Below, piece by piece: positions 1,895-37,333 of a stretch of 37,333 nucleotides of DNA. The first letter of the stretch is position 1. Each line of letters opens with the position of its first letter. The position numbers and the translations under genes were made by a program. This DNA comes from a virus: positions 1 through 37,333 of IMG/VR virus record IMGVR_UViG_3300021197_000386. The stretch is one strand, 5' to 3'. The notes beneath the pieces were generated by a model, which did not search any database, was not told the DNA's origin, and saw only the letters and a list, made by a program, of their open reading frames with translations.

Positions 1895-3709
1895 TCAATG
1901 TGTCTCCGCCCAAGTACGGCCTACCTTGTATTCCCCATCCAGTGGGCATCGGAAACCAAAGGGCTTCCCAGCCTGACGGATGGCCTTGACCGTCAGTTCC
2001 CCCACACGTTCTGAATCTTGCTCCATCACTTCATATTGTATTTCATCATGGATGTGAGCGACTTGATTAGCTTCCACGCCATCCATGCGGTGGAGCTTAC
2101 GAGCCTGTATAGTTGCTTGTTTCATGAGAACAGCCCCCGCACATTGGAGCAGGGCGTTCAAAGCTGAGTGGCTAGACCTAATTGGGATACGTCGGCCATC
2201 AAGGCCCACCAAGTAGTCTCGCTTCTTGAGTGTGTTTTCAAGGCCGGTCTTCAAGTATTGCAGGGCAGGCATCTTCTTCAAAAAGCGTTTCTCAAGGCCC
2301 TTACCTTCTGCTGGACCGCCCCCCACAACCTTCCCTAAGCGGACTGGCCCCGCTCCATACAAAAAGGCGTAGATGAATTCTTTAGCCATATTTCTGTCAG
2401 GCAGCCCCGCAGCCTTCTGATTGGCTGTGTGAATATCGCCTTCAACAATGATGTCGGCGTAGATCCCGCCATCCCACTTCGCTAGGTAGTGAGCAAGGCA
2501 TCTTAATTCCAGACCACTAGCATCAACGCCTACCATTTGATGGCCGGGAGCTGTAGTGAACAACGACCGGCAAGAGTTTCCATAGGGTGCGTGACACGCG
2601 GGAACCTGAGCGACGTTGGGCTTGCTATGTGTACACCTACCCGTCACCGTTCCGTTGGGATTGACCCTACCGTAAATGCGGCCATTCTGTTCCAGCTTCA
2701 TCCAGGCTTCTTTACCATCACCCAGCTGCCCTAGTCGCTTAGATAGCGTCAAGTAGTCAACCAGAAGCTTAGCCTCTCGGTGCGGCATCGTCTTCAAGAT
2801 CGACTCATCGACCTGCGGCTGACCGCTAGGCGTAAACACCTCGGGCTTCCAACTATACTTATCGATCAGACAGCGAGCTATTTGCTGCCTAGAGTCTGGG
2901 TTGAATGGCACTTCTTTAGTCTTGTTAGGACCGCGAGTAATCTCACTGTCCTTGAACCCGGCCTTCTTTGCCGCTGTCTTCGTAGGATACTTACCAACCT
3001 CACCGTCTCGGATAGTCTTCCAGTACGCCGGTGTCTTCATCGTCGTAATGACTGGAGGGAACACTTCGACAAGATCATCCCTAATAGTGTTGCGAAGACC
3101 AGATAGCTCGGCGTATAGCTCCGAGGCTTTCTTGATATCGAAGCCTATGCCGTTCTGCTCTTGCTTGATCAGGCAGTCAGCAAACTCATGCTCAATGATA
3201 AGGGCCTCGATAGCGGGTTCAGTAGCCATGATCTTGTCCCAGAGCTTCTGGGTGACCATCGTGTCCTGCTCACAGTAGGTGATCATCTCATCATTGAGCG
3301 TATCCCACCCACCATCGTACTCACCCTTATGTTCCCCAAGCCGGTAGCCCCAAGCCTTCAAGGAGTGGGAGCCAATCAATTGCTTGGGATAGTCCTTGAG
3401 CGAGTAGTCTTGATCCTTCTGATTTGGGTACACAAGGCGAGCCATGATCAACGTGTCACGCACCAGCCCACTCGGCTTCCAGCCTGGATAAAGCTTCTGA
3501 ATAGCAGGGATGTCAAAGCCAAGAATGTTGTGGCCGACAATGAGGTCTTGTTCCCTCAAGAACTTCAGCCCGTCAACAATATCGTCACCCGTGAAGCTGA
3601 CAGTGTTCTTGCCTTGCCTAATCACCAAGCAATGAATGGCGGTCAGGCCTTGCAAGGTTCTGAAGTTATCTATAGCTGTCGTTTCAATATCAAATATAGT
3701 AGGTTTCAA
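1895..3709 (-). CDS. DNA polymerase, family A with 3'-5' exonuclease (T7 gene 5-like)
   Basis: This 604-residue protein contains exonuclease motif I (FDIETT, D7 and E9), exonuclease II (GHNILGFD) and polymerase motif A (GVDASGLELR, D396). It also has the O-helix (KEFIYAFLYGAG) and motif C (IHDEIQ, D555/E556). All catalytic carboxylates are present, so it should be a proofreading replicase. Its length is shorter than T7 gp5 (704). The start is a TTG at 3709: no ATG exists before the exonuclease motif, GGAG lies eight bases upstream, and the codon overlaps the methyltransferase stop as TTGA. That overlap implies translational coupling. T7 polymerase uses host thioredoxin as clamp; I did not identify a thioredoxin-binding loop. 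Confidence 0.97.
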   Translation of the reverse strand: MKPTIFDIETTAIDNFRTLQGLTAIHCLVIRQGKNTVSFTGDDIVDGLKFLREQDLIVGHNILGFDIPAIQKLYPGWKPSGLVRDTLIMARLVYPNQKDQDYSLKDYPKQLIGSHSLKAWGYRLGEHKGEYDGGWDTLNDEMITYCEQDTMVTQKLWDKIMATEPAIEALIIEHEFADCLIKQEQNGIGFDIKKASELYAELSGLRNTIRDDLVEVFPPVITTMKTPAYWKTIRDGEVGKYPTKTAAKKAGFKDSEITRGPNKTKEVPFNPDSRQQIARCLIDKYSWKPEVFTPSGQPQVDESILKTMPHREAKLLVDYLTLSKRLGQLGDGKEAWMKLEQNGRIYGRVNPNGTVTGRCTHSKPNVAQVPACHAPYGNSCRSLFTTAPGHQMVGVDASGLELRCLAHYLAKWDGGIYADIIVEGDIHTANQKAAGLPDRNMAKEFIYAFLYGAGPVRLGKVVGGGPAEGKGLEKRFLKKMPALQYLKTGLENTLKKRDYLVGLDGRRIPIRSSHSALNALLQCAGAVLMKQATIQARKLHRMDGVEANQVAHIHDEIQYEVMEQDSERVGELTVKAIRQAGKPFGFRCPLDGEYKVGRTWAETH

Positions 3710-4473
3710 AATCTTCTCCGATGAAGCCTGTCGCTTGCCAATATAGATTCACCCAGTAACTGGGTAATTTGTGGTACTACGGCGTTGCCGAGTTGTTTAA
3801 TTCTGTCCACCCGATTGGGAATCCCATCAGCCACTCGCAGAACATCGGAGTCAGGCTGCCAGTAGTTTGATAGTTCTCTCTTGAGTGAACTACTCTTCCC
3901 AGCAAACAATTCGGATCGACATTCCGACAAGCCTTCGCGGAGCCGTCCTTCCAATCGCGGCTCGTCGGGGTGGGCCACCGCTGCAAGCCAGAGTCGGTCC
4001 CTCTGGTGAGGCGCACCAACGGCATAAGCGGGGATACAATGCCACTCAGCATTGTAGCCGAGCGACCGAAGATCGCTGAGGACTGTGGTAAGCCCTCTTC
4101 GTCGCAAGAGTGGGACGTTCTCCACGATGACCCACTCGGGGCGGACTTCGGCAATGAGCCTGGAATACTCTTTCCAAAGTCCTGATCGGGGCTGCTCAAT
4201 TCCTGTGGGCTTGTGCTGCTGGGCTCCGCTGATATCGACGCAGGGGAATCCTCCGGTGATAACTGTTGGAACAACTCCATCTGTTTCCAATCTTCCACCC
4301 GTAAGCTCCTTTATGTCCCCATACTTTGGGACACCGGGCCAATGTTTTTCTAAGACCTGTTGTGCCTTGGTATCTATCTCGCAAAAGGCAACGGTTTCAA
4401 ACCCACCGGTCCTCTCTAGCCCAAGGCTAAAGCCTCCAATGCCAGCAAACAGATCTAATACTTTGTGCTTCAA
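3706..4473 (-). CDS. DNA cytosine-5 methyltransferase (Dcm-like)
   Basis: This 255-residue protein contains C5-methyltransferase motif I (DLFAGIGG), motif IV with the catalytic Cys (GGFPC, C78), motif VI (VENV, 118-120) and motif VIII (QRDRLW, from Q157). It ends with the GNAVVP motif (229-234). The target-recognition region between motifs VIII and X is very short, as in many phage enzymes, so the recognised site cannot be read out. The start is a TTG at 4473 overlapping the preceding stop (TTGA). No restriction endonuclease partner is nearby, so it is probably a solitary enzyme protecting phage DNA. It sits directly upstream of, and coupled to, the DNA polymerase gene. Confidence 0.95.
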   Translation of the reverse strand: MKHKVLDLFAGIGGFSLGLERTGGFETVAFCEIDTKAQQVLEKHWPGVPKYGDIKELTGGRLETDGVVPTVITGGFPCVDISGAQQHKPTGIEQPRSGLWKEYSRLIAEVRPEWVIVENVPLLRRRGLTTVLSDLRSLGYNAEWHCIPAYAVGAPHQRDRLWLAAVAHPDEPRLEGRLREGLSECRSELFAGKSSSLKRELSNYWQPDSDVLRVADGIPNRVDRIKQLGNAVVPQITQLLGESILASDRLHRRRF

Positions 4474-11475: not shown

Positions 11476-11560
11476 GAGAGTTTCTCCAAAGTCTCTGTAT
11501 GTCTTCGGCATGATGTAGGACAGCACGCCAACAATTCAAGTGTACACGATATAAAAAACT

Positions 11561-11587
11561 GCGAGACTAAAGACCGCGAGACTAAGG
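11561..11587. repeat. 15-base-spaced direct repeat upstream of integrase
   Basis: GCGAGACTAA occurs at 11561-11570 and 11576-11585, with similar flanks (AAG versus GG), next to an A/T run. It lies about 90-110 bases before the integrase ATG in a noncoding gap. It could be a repressor operator or an integrase arm-binding site. No experimental or family evidence decides this. Confidence 0.4.
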
Positions 11588-11642
11588 CTTGGGCCTGGAT
11601 CTGGGCTTCGGGTGCTGGGCCTGGATATTAGGTCGGCGCATG

Positions 11643-11675
11643 AAATACCCCCGGAGCCGGGGCCCCGAGGGTATT
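11643..11675 (-). terminator. terminator-like hairpin after the gp88-like gene
   Basis: On the minus strand a 13-base-pair stem (AATACCCTCGGGG with CTCCGGGGGTATT, including two G-U pairs) closes a six-base loop and ends in TATTTC. It lies 18 bases after the gene's stop. The U tract is short, so termination may be partial. Confidence 0.6.
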
Positions 11676-11693
11676 CAGTGAGAAGGGTTCTAT

Positions 11694-12440
11694 TTATCGG
11701 TGGGCGGGATAGATAATATCCACCCGGGGATCGTCGCACAATGTACACGCTCCACACTTGGCCCGATCCGAGCCCGTCCGAAGATGCATAGCGGCCACCG
11801 AGGGGCACACTTTACAAGGGCGGCCAGTATGACGTTGACGAATGCCCGCGATACGTTTAGCAAGGGCCACCCGTTCCCGGGGCTTATGGCCCTTCATGGT
11901 CCCGGCCACGAATGAAACCGGGCCCGGGGTACGTTTCCATTCCCGTAGGGTATGGACCGATTCCCGTACCGTGATGGGAACCCCCGATAAGTACTCCCGA
12001 TATGTCCGGGCCTTATCGCTGGATTCAATCGGGAAGTGTACCGGTACACCGTGATCGACGGCCTCAGCCAATAGGGCCCGGAGGCCCTCGGGCGGGGTAG
12101 CCGGTACGGGACCGAAGGCGGATATCCGTAGCCAGGGAATCGCCTTCCGTAGATACAAGGGCCGAAGCTCGGCCCGGGCTAGGGTGACGATATGCTCAGG
12201 ATCGGCGGCATCATGCCGGTCGAGCTTCCGGCGCAGATTCTCCCGATCCGCCCGGGTTTCAAGCTTGTAAGCATAACAAAGAGAATCGGGATCAGCTGTA
12301 TCGGGATGGTGGGAACATCCTGGATCGCAATGCTTCCCCCCGGACCTACCGAAATTCAAAGCCACCGAGCCCCGTATACCCTTGCCGAAGCTACCGAGTA
12401 CCGGGGCCGAGCCGTTGATTGTTAACGGTGTGGAGATCAT
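11694..12440 (-). CDS. cysteine-rich protein resembling phage gp88 family
   Basis: This 248-residue protein has two cysteine clusters. The N-terminal one is HCDPGCSHH...LCYA (C38, C42, C55). The C-terminal one is CKVCPS...CGACTLCDDP (C209, C212, C229, C232, C235) followed by IIYPAH. The early C..C..CYA motif and the late CGxCxxC-D motif recall the actinobacteriophage Gene product 88 family, whose function is unknown. Eight spaced cysteines suggest metal or Fe-S binding. The radical-SAM CX3CX2C motif is not met, because the third position is His. The ATG at 12440 overlaps the stop of the upstream 26-residue ORF (ATGA). It is the last gene of the leader-repeat module. Confidence 0.7.
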   Translation of the reverse strand: MISTPLTINGSAPVLGSFGKGIRGSVALNFGRSGGKHCDPGCSHHPDTADPDSLCYAYKLETRADRENLRRKLDRHDAADPEHIVTLARAELRPLYLRKAIPWLRISAFGPVPATPPEGLRALLAEAVDHGVPVHFPIESSDKARTYREYLSGVPITVRESVHTLREWKRTPGPVSFVAGTMKGHKPRERVALAKRIAGIRQRHTGRPCKVCPSVAAMHLRTGSDRAKCGACTLCDDPRVDIIYPAHR

Positions 12441-12517
12441 GAGTCCATCCCCCTGACCATCAATTCAAACGTGATAACCAGAACAGCCACAACCCCTATG
12501 CATATCAATGCAATCAT
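12437..12517 (-). CDS. 26-residue single-span membrane peptide
   Basis: The ORF encodes MIALICIGVVAVLVITFEL followed by MVRGMDS, which is one uninterrupted hydrophobic helix with a short polar tail. The conserved leader with CGGAG lies eight bases before its ATG, and its stop overlaps the next start (ATGA). These features point to translation despite the small size. It could act in the membrane or serve only to couple translation to the gp88-like gene. Confidence 0.6.
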   Translation of the reverse strand: MIALICIGVVAVLVITFELMVRGMDS

Positions 12518-12522
12518 GCGAA

Positions 12523-12535
12523 ATACTCCGTTTCA
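12523..12535 (-). promoter_or_regulatory. repeated leader/ribosome-binding element, copy 4
   Basis: TGAAACGGAGTAT, identical in all four copies, ends five bases before the ATG of the 26-residue ORF. The CGGAG part is a Shine-Dalgarno sequence. The upstream CATTCCAT is shared with copy 3. Confidence 0.75.
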
Positions 12536-12629
12536 ATGGAATGATGCGAAGCCCGGACACCCCGAGCCGAAACGCCCGGAGGCCCGTTAAGGCCCCCGAG
12601 CGGGGTTTCCCGATGCTTAAATCAGCTGA

Positions 12630-13697
12630 TTAGGCTGGATAACCTACCTTATCAGGCGACGGGGTATCGAATGCAGCAGCGAATGCGCTACGCTTCTGAT
12701 CCGCCCGTTTCCCTAGCAGGTTGGATTCCATACGATCGCCCCGGGACGTGGATTCATGATCCAGCTGGCGGGTGACGGCATTAAATGCGGCCCATTTAGT
12801 ATTGCGAATGTTGCTATGGATTTGGTTTCCATCACCATCCTCGAAATTCCATTTCCATGATGTAATCGTTTGCGCGGCCTTGCGGGCGGCCCGATCGTAT
12901 TGATCCCATACCTTCTGGTCTGGATCGCCGCTAGGTTCACCGGCCATGAGGATCGCCCGGGCTTGATCCGATGCAATCGATCCGATATAGACGCGCTTGA
13001 AATATCGATCAAGCCACCTATCGGACATCACGTCTTCCAGGGAAAGCCGTTCGGCGGCCTCAATGAATGAATCATGAGCGGATTCAGTCCCAGCGAGTAC
13101 ACGCCGGGCCCGCTCGATAGCCCCGGCCATATCGCCACGATGCGGAATTGATACGCCCCCGGTCCCCTCGGCCCCGGACATGCTAAACGTATTCTTACAG
13201 ACCACCCGGATATTGGTAGGCAGTACACGAATACCTAGCTTTCCATCATGCCCCGTAGCGAAGAGCGAATATTTAGCGACGGGATCAACGCCCGCGATAT
13301 TGTGCTGGCCCTGTTTCAGGAGGAACCAAACCCGCCGCCCATCGGCGAAGCTTCCCGCAGTCTCGACGGCATCGAAATCCTCACCGAGTACCTGACCGAT
13401 GAAATCGACCATTTCGGAATTCTGGAAAGGCTTGTATTTAGAGGAAACGACACCGAGGGCGGCCCGTGTATCAGCCCGATAGACCACCCGGTGATCATCA
13501 AGGGTACGATTCCCGCCATCTGGAGAATCATCGGCGGGCGTCCATTCCGGGGTAGCAAGCTTCACTTGCCAATTCAGCTCGGCATGGTCGAGGGCCTCCC
13601 GGGGTGTGCAATGCTCGGGAATAAGCTTCCCGAGCCCGTGCCAGGGAACTGCCCCGGTGTACATCATCTGATCGTTATTTGTCAATTCGTGGGCCAT
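12630..13697 (-). CDS. DUF932 phage/plasmid-like protein
   Basis: This 355-residue protein fits the DUF932 (TIGR03299, phage/plasmid-like) family, which is common on plasmids and phages and has no settled biochemical function. Visible hallmarks are the N-terminal PWHGLGK segment, the VSSKYKPFQN segment, GRRVWFLLK, and the RVVCKNTF segment before a helical C-terminal half. The length is normal for the family. The ATG at 13697 is preceded by leader copy 3. It is the largest gene of the early accessory module. Such genes are often carried beside anti-restriction or mobility genes, but a role here would be a guess. The stop codon lies in the palindrome AATCAGCTGATT. Confidence 0.85.
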   Translation of the reverse strand: MAHELTNNDQMMYTGAVPWHGLGKLIPEHCTPREALDHAELNWQVKLATPEWTPADDSPDGGNRTLDDHRVVYRADTRAALGVVSSKYKPFQNSEMVDFIGQVLGEDFDAVETAGSFADGRRVWFLLKQGQHNIAGVDPVAKYSLFATGHDGKLGIRVLPTNIRVVCKNTFSMSGAEGTGGVSIPHRGDMAGAIERARRVLAGTESAHDSFIEAAERLSLEDVMSDRWLDRYFKRVYIGSIASDQARAILMAGEPSGDPDQKVWDQYDRAARKAAQTITSWKWNFEDGDGNQIHSNIRNTKWAAFNAVTRQLDHESTSRGDRMESNLLGKRADQKRSAFAAAFDTPSPDKVGYPA

Positions 13698-13703
13698 GGT
13701 TTA

Positions 13704-13716
13704 ATACTCCGTTTCA
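13704..13716 (-). promoter_or_regulatory. repeated leader/ribosome-binding element, copy 3
   Basis: TGAAACGGAGTAT precedes the DUF932 ATG by six bases, with CATTCCAT upstream as in copy 4. Confidence 0.75.
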
Positions 13717-13756
13717 ATGGAATGGCCTAAGGTAAGGCCCGGCACAATACCGGGCG

Positions 13757-13788
13757 AAATAAGCCCCGGAGCCGTTAAGCCCCGGGGC
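13757..13788 (-). terminator. terminator-like GC hairpin upstream of DUF932
   Basis: On the minus strand GCCCCGGGGCT pairs with GGCTCCGGGGC (two G-U pairs) across a four-base loop and is followed by TTATTT. It lies between the 44-residue ORF and leader copy 3. It may attenuate or process the transcript. Confidence 0.55.
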
Positions 13789-13804
13789 CTGATCATTGTA
13801 TCGA

Positions 13805-13939
13805 CTATCGAGATCGGCGGGCTTCTGATTTCCTCCGGGCTTCCCCGTCGCATTCCTCGGTCCATTGATCCCAATGCTTAGCGAGGGCCATGCAGACGAT
13901 GAAGCCAACAAACGTGATTGTGATGATTGCGATATTCAT
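13805..13939 (-). CDS. 44-residue membrane-anchored small protein
   Basis: The ORF encodes MNIAIITITFVGFIVCMAL followed by a charged tail (KHWDQWTEEC...RRKSEARRSR). This gives one N-terminal hydrophobic span and a basic cytoplasmic-type tail. Its ATG overlaps the stop of the 74-residue gene (ATGA), so it is translationally coupled. It is too short for most gene finders. Function unknown. Confidence 0.65.
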   Translation of the reverse strand: MNIAIITITFVGFIVCMALAKHWDQWTEECDGEARRKSEARRSR

Positions 13940-14160
13940 TCGCCGGGCTCCTCTCTCCAATTATGAGCGATTGCCGGATTGCACCCGGTCAGGAATACCC
14001 GCCGCCCTCGCTCATTCTTAAGCCCTACAATCCCGGGCTCGGCCCCGTCGATAACCTCCCACAGTGCTATACCGGTCTGTTCATATAACCTACCGACGTG
14101 AACCCGGTCCCCTCGTTTGAGGATGGTAGTGGATTGATCTAACTGCGCTTCTGGCTTCAT
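13936..14160 (-). CDS. small hypothetical protein of the early accessory module
   Basis: This 74-residue protein is predicted to be mainly beta: ILKRGDRVHVGRLYEQTG, ALWEVIDG, GIVGLKNERGRRVFLTG. It is reminiscent of a small SH3-like barrel, but I do not recognise a family. Translation is well supported: leader copy 2 with CGGAG precedes the ATG at 14160, and the stop overlaps the next start as ATGA. An early anti-host or regulatory role would fit its position, but nothing in the sequence shows it. Confidence 0.7.
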   Translation of the reverse strand: MKPEAQLDQSTTILKRGDRVHVGRLYEQTGIALWEVIDGAEPGIVGLKNERGRRVFLTGCNPAIAHNWREEPGE

Positions 14161-14165
14161 TTCAT

Positions 14166-14178
14166 ATACTCCGTTTCA
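14166..14178 (-). promoter_or_regulatory. repeated leader/ribosome-binding element, copy 2
   Basis: TGAAACGGAGTAT, followed by ATGAAATG as in copy 1, precedes the 74-residue gene. A perfect 7-base-pair hairpin (ATCCTGG/CCAGGAT, 14195-14212) lies just upstream. Confidence 0.75.
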
Positions 14179-14223
14179 AATGGAAAGAACTAAGATCCTG
14201 GATGCCCAGGATTGCCCGTGGTG

Positions 14224-14262
14224 AATAAGGCCCGGGGATAGTTTAGGCCCCCGGGCCTTATT
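14224..14262 (-). terminator. perfect 14-base inverted repeat, probable terminator
   Basis: AATAAGGCCCGGGG and CCCCGGGCCTTATT pair without mismatch across an 11-base loop. The structure begins two bases after the stop of the 172-residue gene. A/T ends on both sides would allow bidirectional termination, though the U tracts are short. Confidence 0.65.
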
Positions 14263-14264
14263 GA

Positions 14265-14783
14265 TCAGGAGCGGGTGTCAATTGTGGAGCGGTTAGCATT
14301 CTGATCAGTGATGATCTTCTGGAACTGTAACCATCTCAAGGTAACCTGATCCTCGATCTCCACGGGATATGATGATCCGATCAGGTTGTTAAGCATCCCG
14401 GCCAGTTCACCCGCCACCAGTTTGACGGGGCGGGTATACAGGATCTGATCCAGAAGCTTGGCCCGAGCCGGTGCGGGCTTGTAGCCCTTGAGGAATTCGC
14501 CACCGAGGGCAACATTGGCCGCCGATACGTTCATAAGCTTGGCCTCGATCGATCCCCGGGACCGATCCTCCAATGGAGCCCCGGTAGCCTGTAGGGCTCG
14601 GATCGTGGCCGCTTTGTTGAACTTGATCCCGTCAAGGGTAGCTTGATACATGGACTGCCACAGTCCACAGATCACGAGTGATTCCTCTACAGACCACCCA
14701 ACCTGATCCCCTATGCCGTGACTGGCCTTGAGGGCTTGGGCCGCTTGGCCTACGTATTCATTGAATTTGTGCCATTGGTTCAT
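14265..14783 (-). CDS. protein resembling the N-terminal domain of HNH/restriction endonucleases
   Basis: This 172-residue, mostly helical protein contains EDRSRGSIEAKLMNVSAAN followed by GGEFLKGYKPA. The order R-S-x-GSIE-K-x-x-N-S and then GYKP is one I associate with the domain preceding HNH or McrBC-type nuclease domains in bacterial restriction-like proteins. No HNH motif or nuclease domain follows. It may therefore be a stand-alone recognition, inhibitor or decoy protein; this is inference. The ATG at 14783 is preceded by leader copy 1. It is the first gene of the module and so probably among the first expressed on infection. Confidence 0.65.
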   Translation of the reverse strand: MNQWHKFNEYVGQAAQALKASHGIGDQVGWSVEESLVICGLWQSMYQATLDGIKFNKAATIRALQATGAPLEDRSRGSIEAKLMNVSAANVALGGEFLKGYKPAPARAKLLDQILYTRPVKLVAGELAGMLNNLIGSSYPVEIEDQVTLRWLQFQKIITDQNANRSTIDTRS

Positions 14784-14788
14784 TTCAT

Positions 14789-14801
14789 ATACTCCGTTTC
14801 A
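14789..14801 (-). promoter_or_regulatory. repeated leader/ribosome-binding element, copy 1
   Basis: TGAAACGGAGTAT followed by ATGAAATG precedes the 172-residue gene. It shares the 13-base core with copies 2-4. Confidence 0.75.
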
Positions 14802-14894
14802 GGGGATTAATGCCGGGCAACATGCCCGAGCTGCTGAATAGTCTATCGGCTCATTCGGTTTCGGGGGCTCTCTATTGTTTAGAAATCGAGAAAT

Positions 14895-14919
14895 AAAAAA
14901 GCCCCCGATAAACGGAGGC
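14895..14919 (-). terminator. rho-independent terminator upstream of the early module
   Basis: On the minus strand GCCTCCG pairs with CGGGGGC (one G-U pair) around a short TTTAT loop and is followed directly by TTTTTT. It would stop transcripts coming from the mini-metallopeptidase operon before the early module. Confidence 0.8.
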
Positions 14920-15086
14920 GGCCAGATTGAGCCGAGGCCATCGGCCATCGATCAGCGGAGCATCGGACTATAGATCCCGAGACAATCGGCCCGGAGGCCC
15001 TACCCCCCGCCCTCTATATATAGAACGTGGCGGATCGACGGGCCCCACTGGGGGAAGCTGGAGCGGCGGTTGCTATCATTAGGCTC

Positions 15087-15434
15087 TCAGATTTTTGTGT
15101 CTAAACATTTGGCGAGGTACACAGGCGTAAGAACCTCAGCCACCTTAGCAGCTTCAGCCTCTCCATCGCCTTCCCAGGCCCCAATGACCCACTGCCATAC
15201 ATGGGTCATCTCATGGATGACGGTTCCCACAAGGTCTTCCGTCCCCATGTCTGCGGCTAGGGTAATCTCGTACCCATCACCTTTGCACTCACAGGCCCCA
15301 AAGTAGCCTAGAGAGTGCTGGGTGTCCACAGTGATCTGTAGATCGTCAGGCAGTTGAAATACCTGTAAGCACCAACAGACGGCCTTCATGATGAGGGCCG
15401 ACTGCCCTTGGGTGGTGTTCTCCATACTAATCAT
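15087..15434 (-). CDS. small zinc metallopeptidase-like protein (HExxH)
   Basis: The 115-residue protein carries VIHEMTHVWQW (H74, E75, H78), the zincin active-site helix, followed by a Glu-rich segment (GDGEAEAAK) that could give the third ligand. A strand pair (GYFGACECKGDGYEITLA) precedes it, as in SprT-like and other minimal zincins. It is much shorter than typical secreted proteases and has no signal peptide, so it probably acts in the cytoplasm or in assembly. The ATG overlaps the previous stop (ATGA) in a three-gene operon. A terminator and noncoding DNA follow. Confidence 0.75.
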   Translation of the reverse strand: MISMENTTQGQSALIMKAVCWCLQVFQLPDDLQITVDTQHSLGYFGACECKGDGYEITLAADMGTEDLVGTVIHEMTHVWQWVIGAWEGDGEAEAAKVAEVLTPVYLAKCLDTKI

Positions 15435-37123: not shown

Positions 37124-37333
37124 TTATCCAGGATAGTTGAGGCCGCCGGATCGCGGGATTCTCAATGCTGATTTGCCCTTCTTACGGCGTATGCTTAAAG
37201 AAGGCCCAGTAGCTGCTCCAAGAGAAGCATCTGTATTTGTGCGAGCGGCTGGTGCAGCTCCCTTAGCGGTCTTTGCCCGAACAGCCTCACCCTTCGGAGC
37301 CGGAGGCGGCGTCGGTGGTGGTGGTGGCGGTGG
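37124..37333 (-). CDS. gp7.3-like virion/tail assembly protein, C-terminal part (cut by window edge)
   Basis: There are 69 codons open to the window edge. A proline run (PPPPPPTPPPAP) is followed by a basic, low-complexity middle (KGEAVRAKTAKGAAPAAR) and the C terminus RRKKGKSALRIPRSGGLNYPG. The end resembles that of T7 gp7.3 as I remember it (KKSLSVARSSGG). The stop lies three bases before the portal start, the same order as T7 7.3-8. Its beginning is at the other window end (1-44). T7 gp7.3 is 99 residues; the two parts here sum to at least 84. Confidence 0.75.
   Translation of the reverse strand, partial: PPPPPPPTPPPAPKGEAVRAKTAKGAAPAARTNTDASLGAATGPSLSIRRKKGKSALRIPRSGGLNYPG

Follow-up and report, generated by a model that had tools for sequence, protein, structure and literature searches.

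Leader-bounded early gene units in an integrase-bearing T7-like podovirus

Introduction

Why should six small open reading frames (ORFs) of a viral genome be served by copies of one and the same sequence placed directly in front of their translation starts? The question is raised by positions 11,694–14,801 of the IMG/VR virus record IMGVR_UViG_3300021197_000386, the whole of which (37,333 nt) was analysed and is referred to below as the window. A sequence-only reading had taken this module for a transferred cassette of co-regulated early genes. The account that we consider likely is a different one, namely, that the module is the left-end early region of an integrase-bearing T7-like podovirus and is composed of four portable expression units, which are gained and lost singly.

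Results

The shared leader, TGAAACGGAGTAT (13 nt), is present in the window in four exact copies, all on the minus strand. The first (14789–14801) lies 5 nt from the ATG of the gene for a 172-aa protein (p172), and the other three, located by exact-copy search, occupy positions 14166–14178, 13704–13716 and 12523–12535. The leader-to-ATG distances are, in this order, 5, 5, 6 and 5 nt; the four exact copies seen in the sequence-only reading are thus confirmed, with a spacing of 5–6 rather than 5–8 nt. The claim that the leader is absent elsewhere in the window also holds, given that the next best sequences carry two mismatches and there is no copy with one. Each leader includes a Shine–Dalgarno (SD)-like GGAG positioned 8–9 nt upstream of the ATG; these bases account for 4 of the 13, and the remaining nine show no pairing to 16S rRNA. 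Six ORFs are covered by the four leaders, two of them starting inside the preceding stop codon through ATGA overlaps (the gene for the 74-aa protein p74 with that for a 44-aa peptide, and the gene for a 26-aa peptide with that for a 248-aa protein). As a fact of sequence, the shared expression signal proposed earlier stands.

The leaders are embedded in a recurrent architecture. Each unit consists of a 5′ stem-loop, a leader bearing a ribosome-binding site (RBS), one or two overlapping ORFs and a GC-rich 3′ stem-loop, the upstream stem-loop being the shorter of the two and located 15–21 nt before the leader; the upstream stems have no common consensus. All these structures are on the minus strand. 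Unit 1 is delimited by stem-loops at 14813–14830 and 14224–14262, the latter with a 15-bp stem (AATAAGGCCCGGGG...CCCCGGGCCTTATT) in a gap with a minimum free energy (MFE) of −40.3 and a z-score of −3.7. Unit 2 lies between stem-loops at 14195–14212 and 13761–13790 (gap z-score −3.9), the 5′ stem-loop of unit 3 is at 13737–13755, and units 3 and 4 are separated by stem-loops at 12559–12606 (gap z-score −2.8), with an inner stem at 12574–12601. The 3′ stem-loop of unit 4 is found at 11645–11676, and an intrinsic-terminator-like hairpin (GCCTCCG-TTTAT-CGGGGGC followed by T6) precedes the first unit at 14901–14919. Compared with shuffled sequences, the four gaps that contain leaders fold with z-scores of −2.8 to −3.9; the comparison gaps comprise four with values of +1.2 to −1.1 and the terminator-like gap after the capsid gene, which also reaches −2.8. 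For the 74-nt stretch after the 248-aa gene, the z-score is only −1.5 (MFE −25.4). The GC hairpins noted previously are therefore real, except that the one placed at 12594–12605 is larger (about 12574–12601). A search of Rfam yielded no match.

The window belongs to a T7-like phage of the Autographiviridae type, as it encodes a single-subunit RNA polymerase (RNAP; PF00940, E-value 2.8e-78; phrog_414, 5.6e-209) in a T7-like gene order, together with an integrase and T7-like replication and structural genes; the phage is probably marine. In annotated Pelagibacter and Roseobacter relatives, the small early genes come first and are followed by (MarR), integrase, RNAP, replication, structure and terminase. 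A closed relative contig, G002, whose ends overlap by ~130 bp, shows the matching gene order across the junction between the backbone and the early region. In the window, this junction (15043–15103, minus strand) comprises GTTTAGACAC-AAAAATCTGA at 15087–15096, a sigma70-like site, TAGACA-17-AATGAT, at 15103–15075 and a C-tract, TTCCCCCAGTGGGG, 42 nt downstream of the junction motif. The motif, GTTTAG..AAAAATCTGA, was found in 31 loci (14 lineages after de-duplication); the C-tract, where scored, lies at +42 to +44. The gene order of the annotated relatives, the closed relative and the conserved junction bear out the assignment of the module to the early region. Furthermore, the deposited genome of CRP-227 ends exactly at AAAAATCTGA, and the left end of T7 carries a similar C/G hairpin, ttcccccataggggg, at nt 24–38. 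Because the junction is conserved, coincides with the end of the CRP-227 record and resembles the T7 left end, it probably represents the left genome end, with the module as the first DNA behind it; the end carrying the module would then probably be the one that enters the host first.

The nearest relatives, with terminases 75%–82% identical to that of the window, break at the matching place and carry different genes and leaders there. The early genes of G002 are found behind CAGGAGGTGACGC and GAGGATGAAACC, those of locus L133 behind CAGGAGAAACACC, and the cultured pelagiphages HTVC309P and HTVC134P have a common SD-bearing leader, AACAGAAAAGGTAAAT. Some relatives possess an A/C-rich leader without SD (AACCAACAACAATC). 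In the early region of L173/L167 (about 5140–7850 in L173), the repeated element is a ~125-bp linker that contains several hairpins, extends from stop codon to start codon and is present in at least five copies, about 85%–93% identical. In L136/L137, the early position is occupied by a very GC-rich stretch, which in L137 ends with an inverted homologue of the 248-aa protein. Where a relative carries a homologue of one of the window genes, it is either under another leader or inverted.

Because the leader signal was weakened when genes were called naively, leader sharing was assessed by a start-agnostic test, in which genes having a common 10-mer within 26 nt upstream of the ATG were counted in 15 genomes. 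The early-region counts were 4 genes in the window, 5 in G015, 3 each in G022 and G002, and 5 in HTVC309P, and none of the 47–148 other test segments per genome reached the early-region count, so that early-only sharing was recorded in 5 of the 15 genomes. By inspection, HTVC134P shows it too, and early leader sharing is also seen in the partial loci L133, L148, L163, L209 and L210. Judging from the sequences compared, each genome, or each pair of sister genomes, appears to have a leader of its own. When the 13-mer was sought in IMG/VR with its upstream context (CCATT/GAAACGGAGTAT), eight matches were obtained, approximately the number expected by chance, none with a cassette gene; a scan for the 13-mer plus ATG returned more than 100 matches, which we put down to chance. 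The sequence-only reading fails its own test, the co-occurrence of these genes elsewhere; the wider pattern is nevertheless present in other members of the group.

Some early regions of the group show other arrangements. In G002 (1802–2540), successive genes end with GGDA* and overlap the next start via a shared GGAGGTGACGCATGA, the leader lying inside the upstream coding sequence. In L216 (CRP-227), a repeated hairpin, CCATGCAATCC(C/T)GCATGC, is located just upstream of two early genes at 1274 and 2097, in a phage that has no shared leader. A candidate switch from SD-less early to SD-bearing late genes in L204 was dropped, the late genes there being mostly without SD as well.

Several differences between close relatives coincide with the unit boundaries. 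HTVC134P lacks the gp6 unit of HTVC309P, which comprises a leader, an ORF and a 3′ hairpin; the two phages cease to be similar 6 nt ahead of this leader. When L209 is compared with L200, a gene flanked by linkers is lacking in one of the two loci, and a second segment has been exchanged for another, starting at a linker. Leader- or linker-bounded changes hence comprise two clear cases in L209/L200 and one in HTVC309P/HTVC134P, with one exception considered below.

In base composition, the window breaks at ~15,060 and ~11,530, and the 4-mer composition of the module is the most deviant in the window (rank 1 of 57). The differing codon use, described previously as rich in CCC, CGG and GGG, was reproduced: the respective codon fractions are 0.46, 0.54 and 0.39 in the module versus 0.27, 0.18 and 0.23 in other genes, and chi per codon is 0.32–0.59 for the module genes versus 0.04–0.26 for 17 other genes. 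The early position has the most deviant composition in 11 of 16 genomes, and GC-rich composition alone was therefore dropped as a mark of transfer. The composition of the early region of the window correlates with those of G002 (0.49) and L133 (0.47) better than with its own genome (0.14). Avoidance of 6-bp palindromes is the usual mark of restriction pressure. The observed/expected ratio of such palindromes is 1.10 at 11527–15086 versus 0.46 in the rest of the window (1.07 versus 0.44 for coding sequence only), and in 16 of 17 genomes in this phage group the ratio is higher in the early region than outside it; this loss of avoidance fits genes recently acquired by the phage.

The gene complement of the module, all on the minus strand, is only partly assignable to families. 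The product of unit 1, p172 (14265–14783), resembles the N-terminal part of the candidate defence protein PDC-S36: in a PADLOC search, residues 29–112 aligned to profile positions 6–85 of 280 (E-value 5e-14), the match falling short of full length with the remaining 195 positions unmatched by p172. The protein has no match in Pfam or PHROGs; the HNH-N-like label attached to it earlier gains indirect support from this alignment to residues 6–85 of PDC-S36. One may guess that p172 serves as a decoy against a host defence protein. Unit 2 encodes p74 (13936–14160), which has no detectable relatives, and the 44-aa peptide (13805–13939) with one probable transmembrane helix and a homologue in G002 (phmmer E-value 1.2e-4). 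The product of unit 3 (12630–13697) is certainly a member of the DUF932 family (Pfam 2.5e-40, 139 bits against a cut-off of 23) and matches the phage/plasmid-like protein family TIGR03299 (1.2e-54, 185.7 bits against a cut-off of 110.7) and phrog_1221 (2e-54). Unit 4 specifies the 26-aa peptide (12437–12517; MIALICIGVVAVLVITFELMVRGMDS), again with one probable transmembrane helix, and the Cys-rich 248-aa protein (11694–12440) with the motifs CxxxC and, C-terminally, CxxC...CxxCxxC. The inverted homologue of the latter in L137 is partial (phmmer E-value 3.9e-9). No family match was obtained for the 248-aa protein in Pfam (up to an E-value of 10), NCBIfam or PHROGs, and the gp88-like label given to it is not supported by these searches. 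Close relatives were absent or represented by weak matches only in viral, genome, phage and plasmid collections for the 248-aa protein, in the phage collection for p172 and in the viral collection for the integrase. Structures predicted without alignment were unusable for p172 (pLDDT 37); for the 248-aa protein (pLDDT 53), a beta/alpha pattern was obtained with mostly barrel enzymes among the non-significant Foldseek matches. Searches of solved structures gave no credible match. One-helix membrane peptides recur in the early regions of relatives. Judging by position only, the probable targets of the module's products are the host or its defence systems.

Elsewhere in the window, a DNA methyltransferase (phrog_363) is encoded among the replication genes at 3706–4473. 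The contig breaks off within GGT-rich sequence of low complexity (37303–37333), and a similar GGCGGCATCGGTGG sequence is found at its start.

Discussion

A break at a conserved junction, genome-specific leaders confined to the early region in several relatives and some single-gene exchanges delimited by leaders or linkers together suggest that early takeover genes are traded as ready-to-express units. Under this account, host RNAP would transcribe the early region from the junction, the stem-loops would act as terminators or as processing/stability signals, and the leader would set the translation start equally for all units; in T7, RNase III sites lie between the early genes as processing/stability signals. 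The units would come and go one at a time, and either recombination or selection for a shared regulator may keep the leader uniform within a genome. A bolder, somewhat doubtful extension is that some T7-like phages maintain a self-homogenising ‘operating system’, whereby an incoming ORF is set between the phage's own leader and a stem-loop, and the leader is at once expression signal, recombination site and target of a phage-specific translational regulator. If so, leaders should be uniform within a phage and different between sister phages.

Several observations weigh against portable early units. The trait is patchy: 10 of the 15 genomes do not stand out, roseophages included, no shared early leader was found in G010, G016, G023, CRP-227, CRP-171, CRP-125 and CRP-114, and the early genes of T7 have no common 9-mer leader. 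The tails after the 3′ stem-loops are U-poor, and a purely translational role leaves the leader bases other than the four SD-like ones unexplained. The exception among the L209/L200 differences is an in-frame deletion within a gene rather than at a linker, and the window itself is a contig from a metagenome, the ends of which are unlinked.

As to the leader itself, a tentative possibility is that it is the binding site of a regulator, be it a phage or host protein or a small RNA, that switches the early units jointly at translation, as has been proposed, without proof, for the SAS elements of mycobacteriophages (PMC3203893). The nine conserved bases unpaired with 16S rRNA, the restriction of the pattern to the early region and the variation of leaders between phages combined with uniformity inside one, as though each were adapted to a factor specific to its phage, speak for such a site, whereas some relatives have leaders that consist simply of A/C-rich sequence lacking an SD, for which unstructured initiation regions are an equally good explanation. 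Rather unlikely is the view that the leader is only a recurrent strong RBS selected for the initiation preferences of the host: the position of GGAG and the location of the relatives' leaders at the start codon agree with it, but identity reaches well past the SD, no leader is shared by the late genes of these genomes and the L173 repeat spans the entire distance from stop codon to start codon.

Returning to the origin of the module, insertion beside the integrase of one foreign cassette, brought with its own leader as a block from a plasmid or another phage, appears distinctly improbable. The composition and codon breaks at both edges, the phage/plasmid family affiliation of the DUF932/TIGR03299 protein and the unavoided palindromes are all compatible with such an event. 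However, the break recurs in relatives whose genes and leaders at this position are different, outlying composition is usual there, the early region is closer in composition to those of G002 and L133 than to its own genome, and homologues of single genes stand under other leaders; moreover, searches of phages, IMG/VR, plasmids and GTDB species genomes (the last two via the 248-aa protein) revealed no copy of the block. The single-event transfer put forward in the sequence-only reading is thus disfavoured. Finally, that the leader is a promoter, as are the intergenic repeats of halovirus HF2 (PMC8707807), is highly implausible, considering that 5–6 nt before the ATG leave no space for a leadered transcript, that a promoter-like scan detected no sigma70-like site on the coding strand of the leader gaps (three in the region, one of them at the junction, versus 3.1 expected from shuffles) and that no leader copy precedes the genes transcribed by the phage RNAP.

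The portable-unit account offers a sequence handle on takeover and anti-defence units: in abundant phages, where hardly any early gene has a known function, such units can be sought by looking for ORFs preceded by a leader that the genome repeats. A further benefit is a testable explanation of early-gene exchange in a group of which some phages, HTVC309P and HTVC134P, are in culture. A design of leader, ORF and stem-loop in the early region was not described for T7-like phages in the literature searched, which is weak evidence of novelty.

The placement of small takeover genes to the left of the RNAP gene is shared with T7 (NC_001604) and with LUZ100, which has host-type promoters and an integrase upstream of RNAP (PMC10134795); unlike here, the T7 early genes share no 9-nt leader. 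With the HF2 repeats, the module shares the recurrence of intergenic elements within the genome of a tailed virus, but those of HF2, an archaeal virus, are distributed genome-wide and are proven promoters (PMC8707807). The closest parallel is with SAS of cluster K mycobacteriophages (consensus GGGATAGGAGCCC), a short asymmetric sequence at the RBS position with an SD core and conservation beyond it, many copies of which precede unrelated non-structural genes; about half are joined to an upstream inverted repeat, ESAS, an imperfect 17-bp inverted repeat of common consensus (PMC3203893). Likewise, all four copies of our leader are asymmetric and lie directly upstream of starts at the SD position. 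However, TGAAACGGAGTAT plainly differs from GGGATAGGAGCCC, by more than the 2–3 mismatches allowed, the SAS hosts are mycobacteria, and SAS is conserved across subclusters whereas the leaders differ between near relatives; moreover, a stem-loop also follows each unit here, and the copies are limited to the left-end early region. PeSLs of T4-like phages, as summarized in a paper citing the original studies, are repeated intergenic stem-loop elements with an early promoter and are linked to modular shuffling (Arbiol 2010, Comeau 2014, cited in PMC4503421). To the extent of that summary, the module resembles them in having repeated intergenic elements with stem-loops in regions of gene exchange, and differs in that no promoter was found in its gaps and in belonging to T7-like podoviruses rather than T4-like myoviruses. 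Collectively, the leader sequences are new and restricted to T7-like early regions, and in kind resemble SAS/ESAS and PeSLs; the module would work like SAS/ESAS and perhaps like PeSLs, while belonging, by the comparisons made, to neither.

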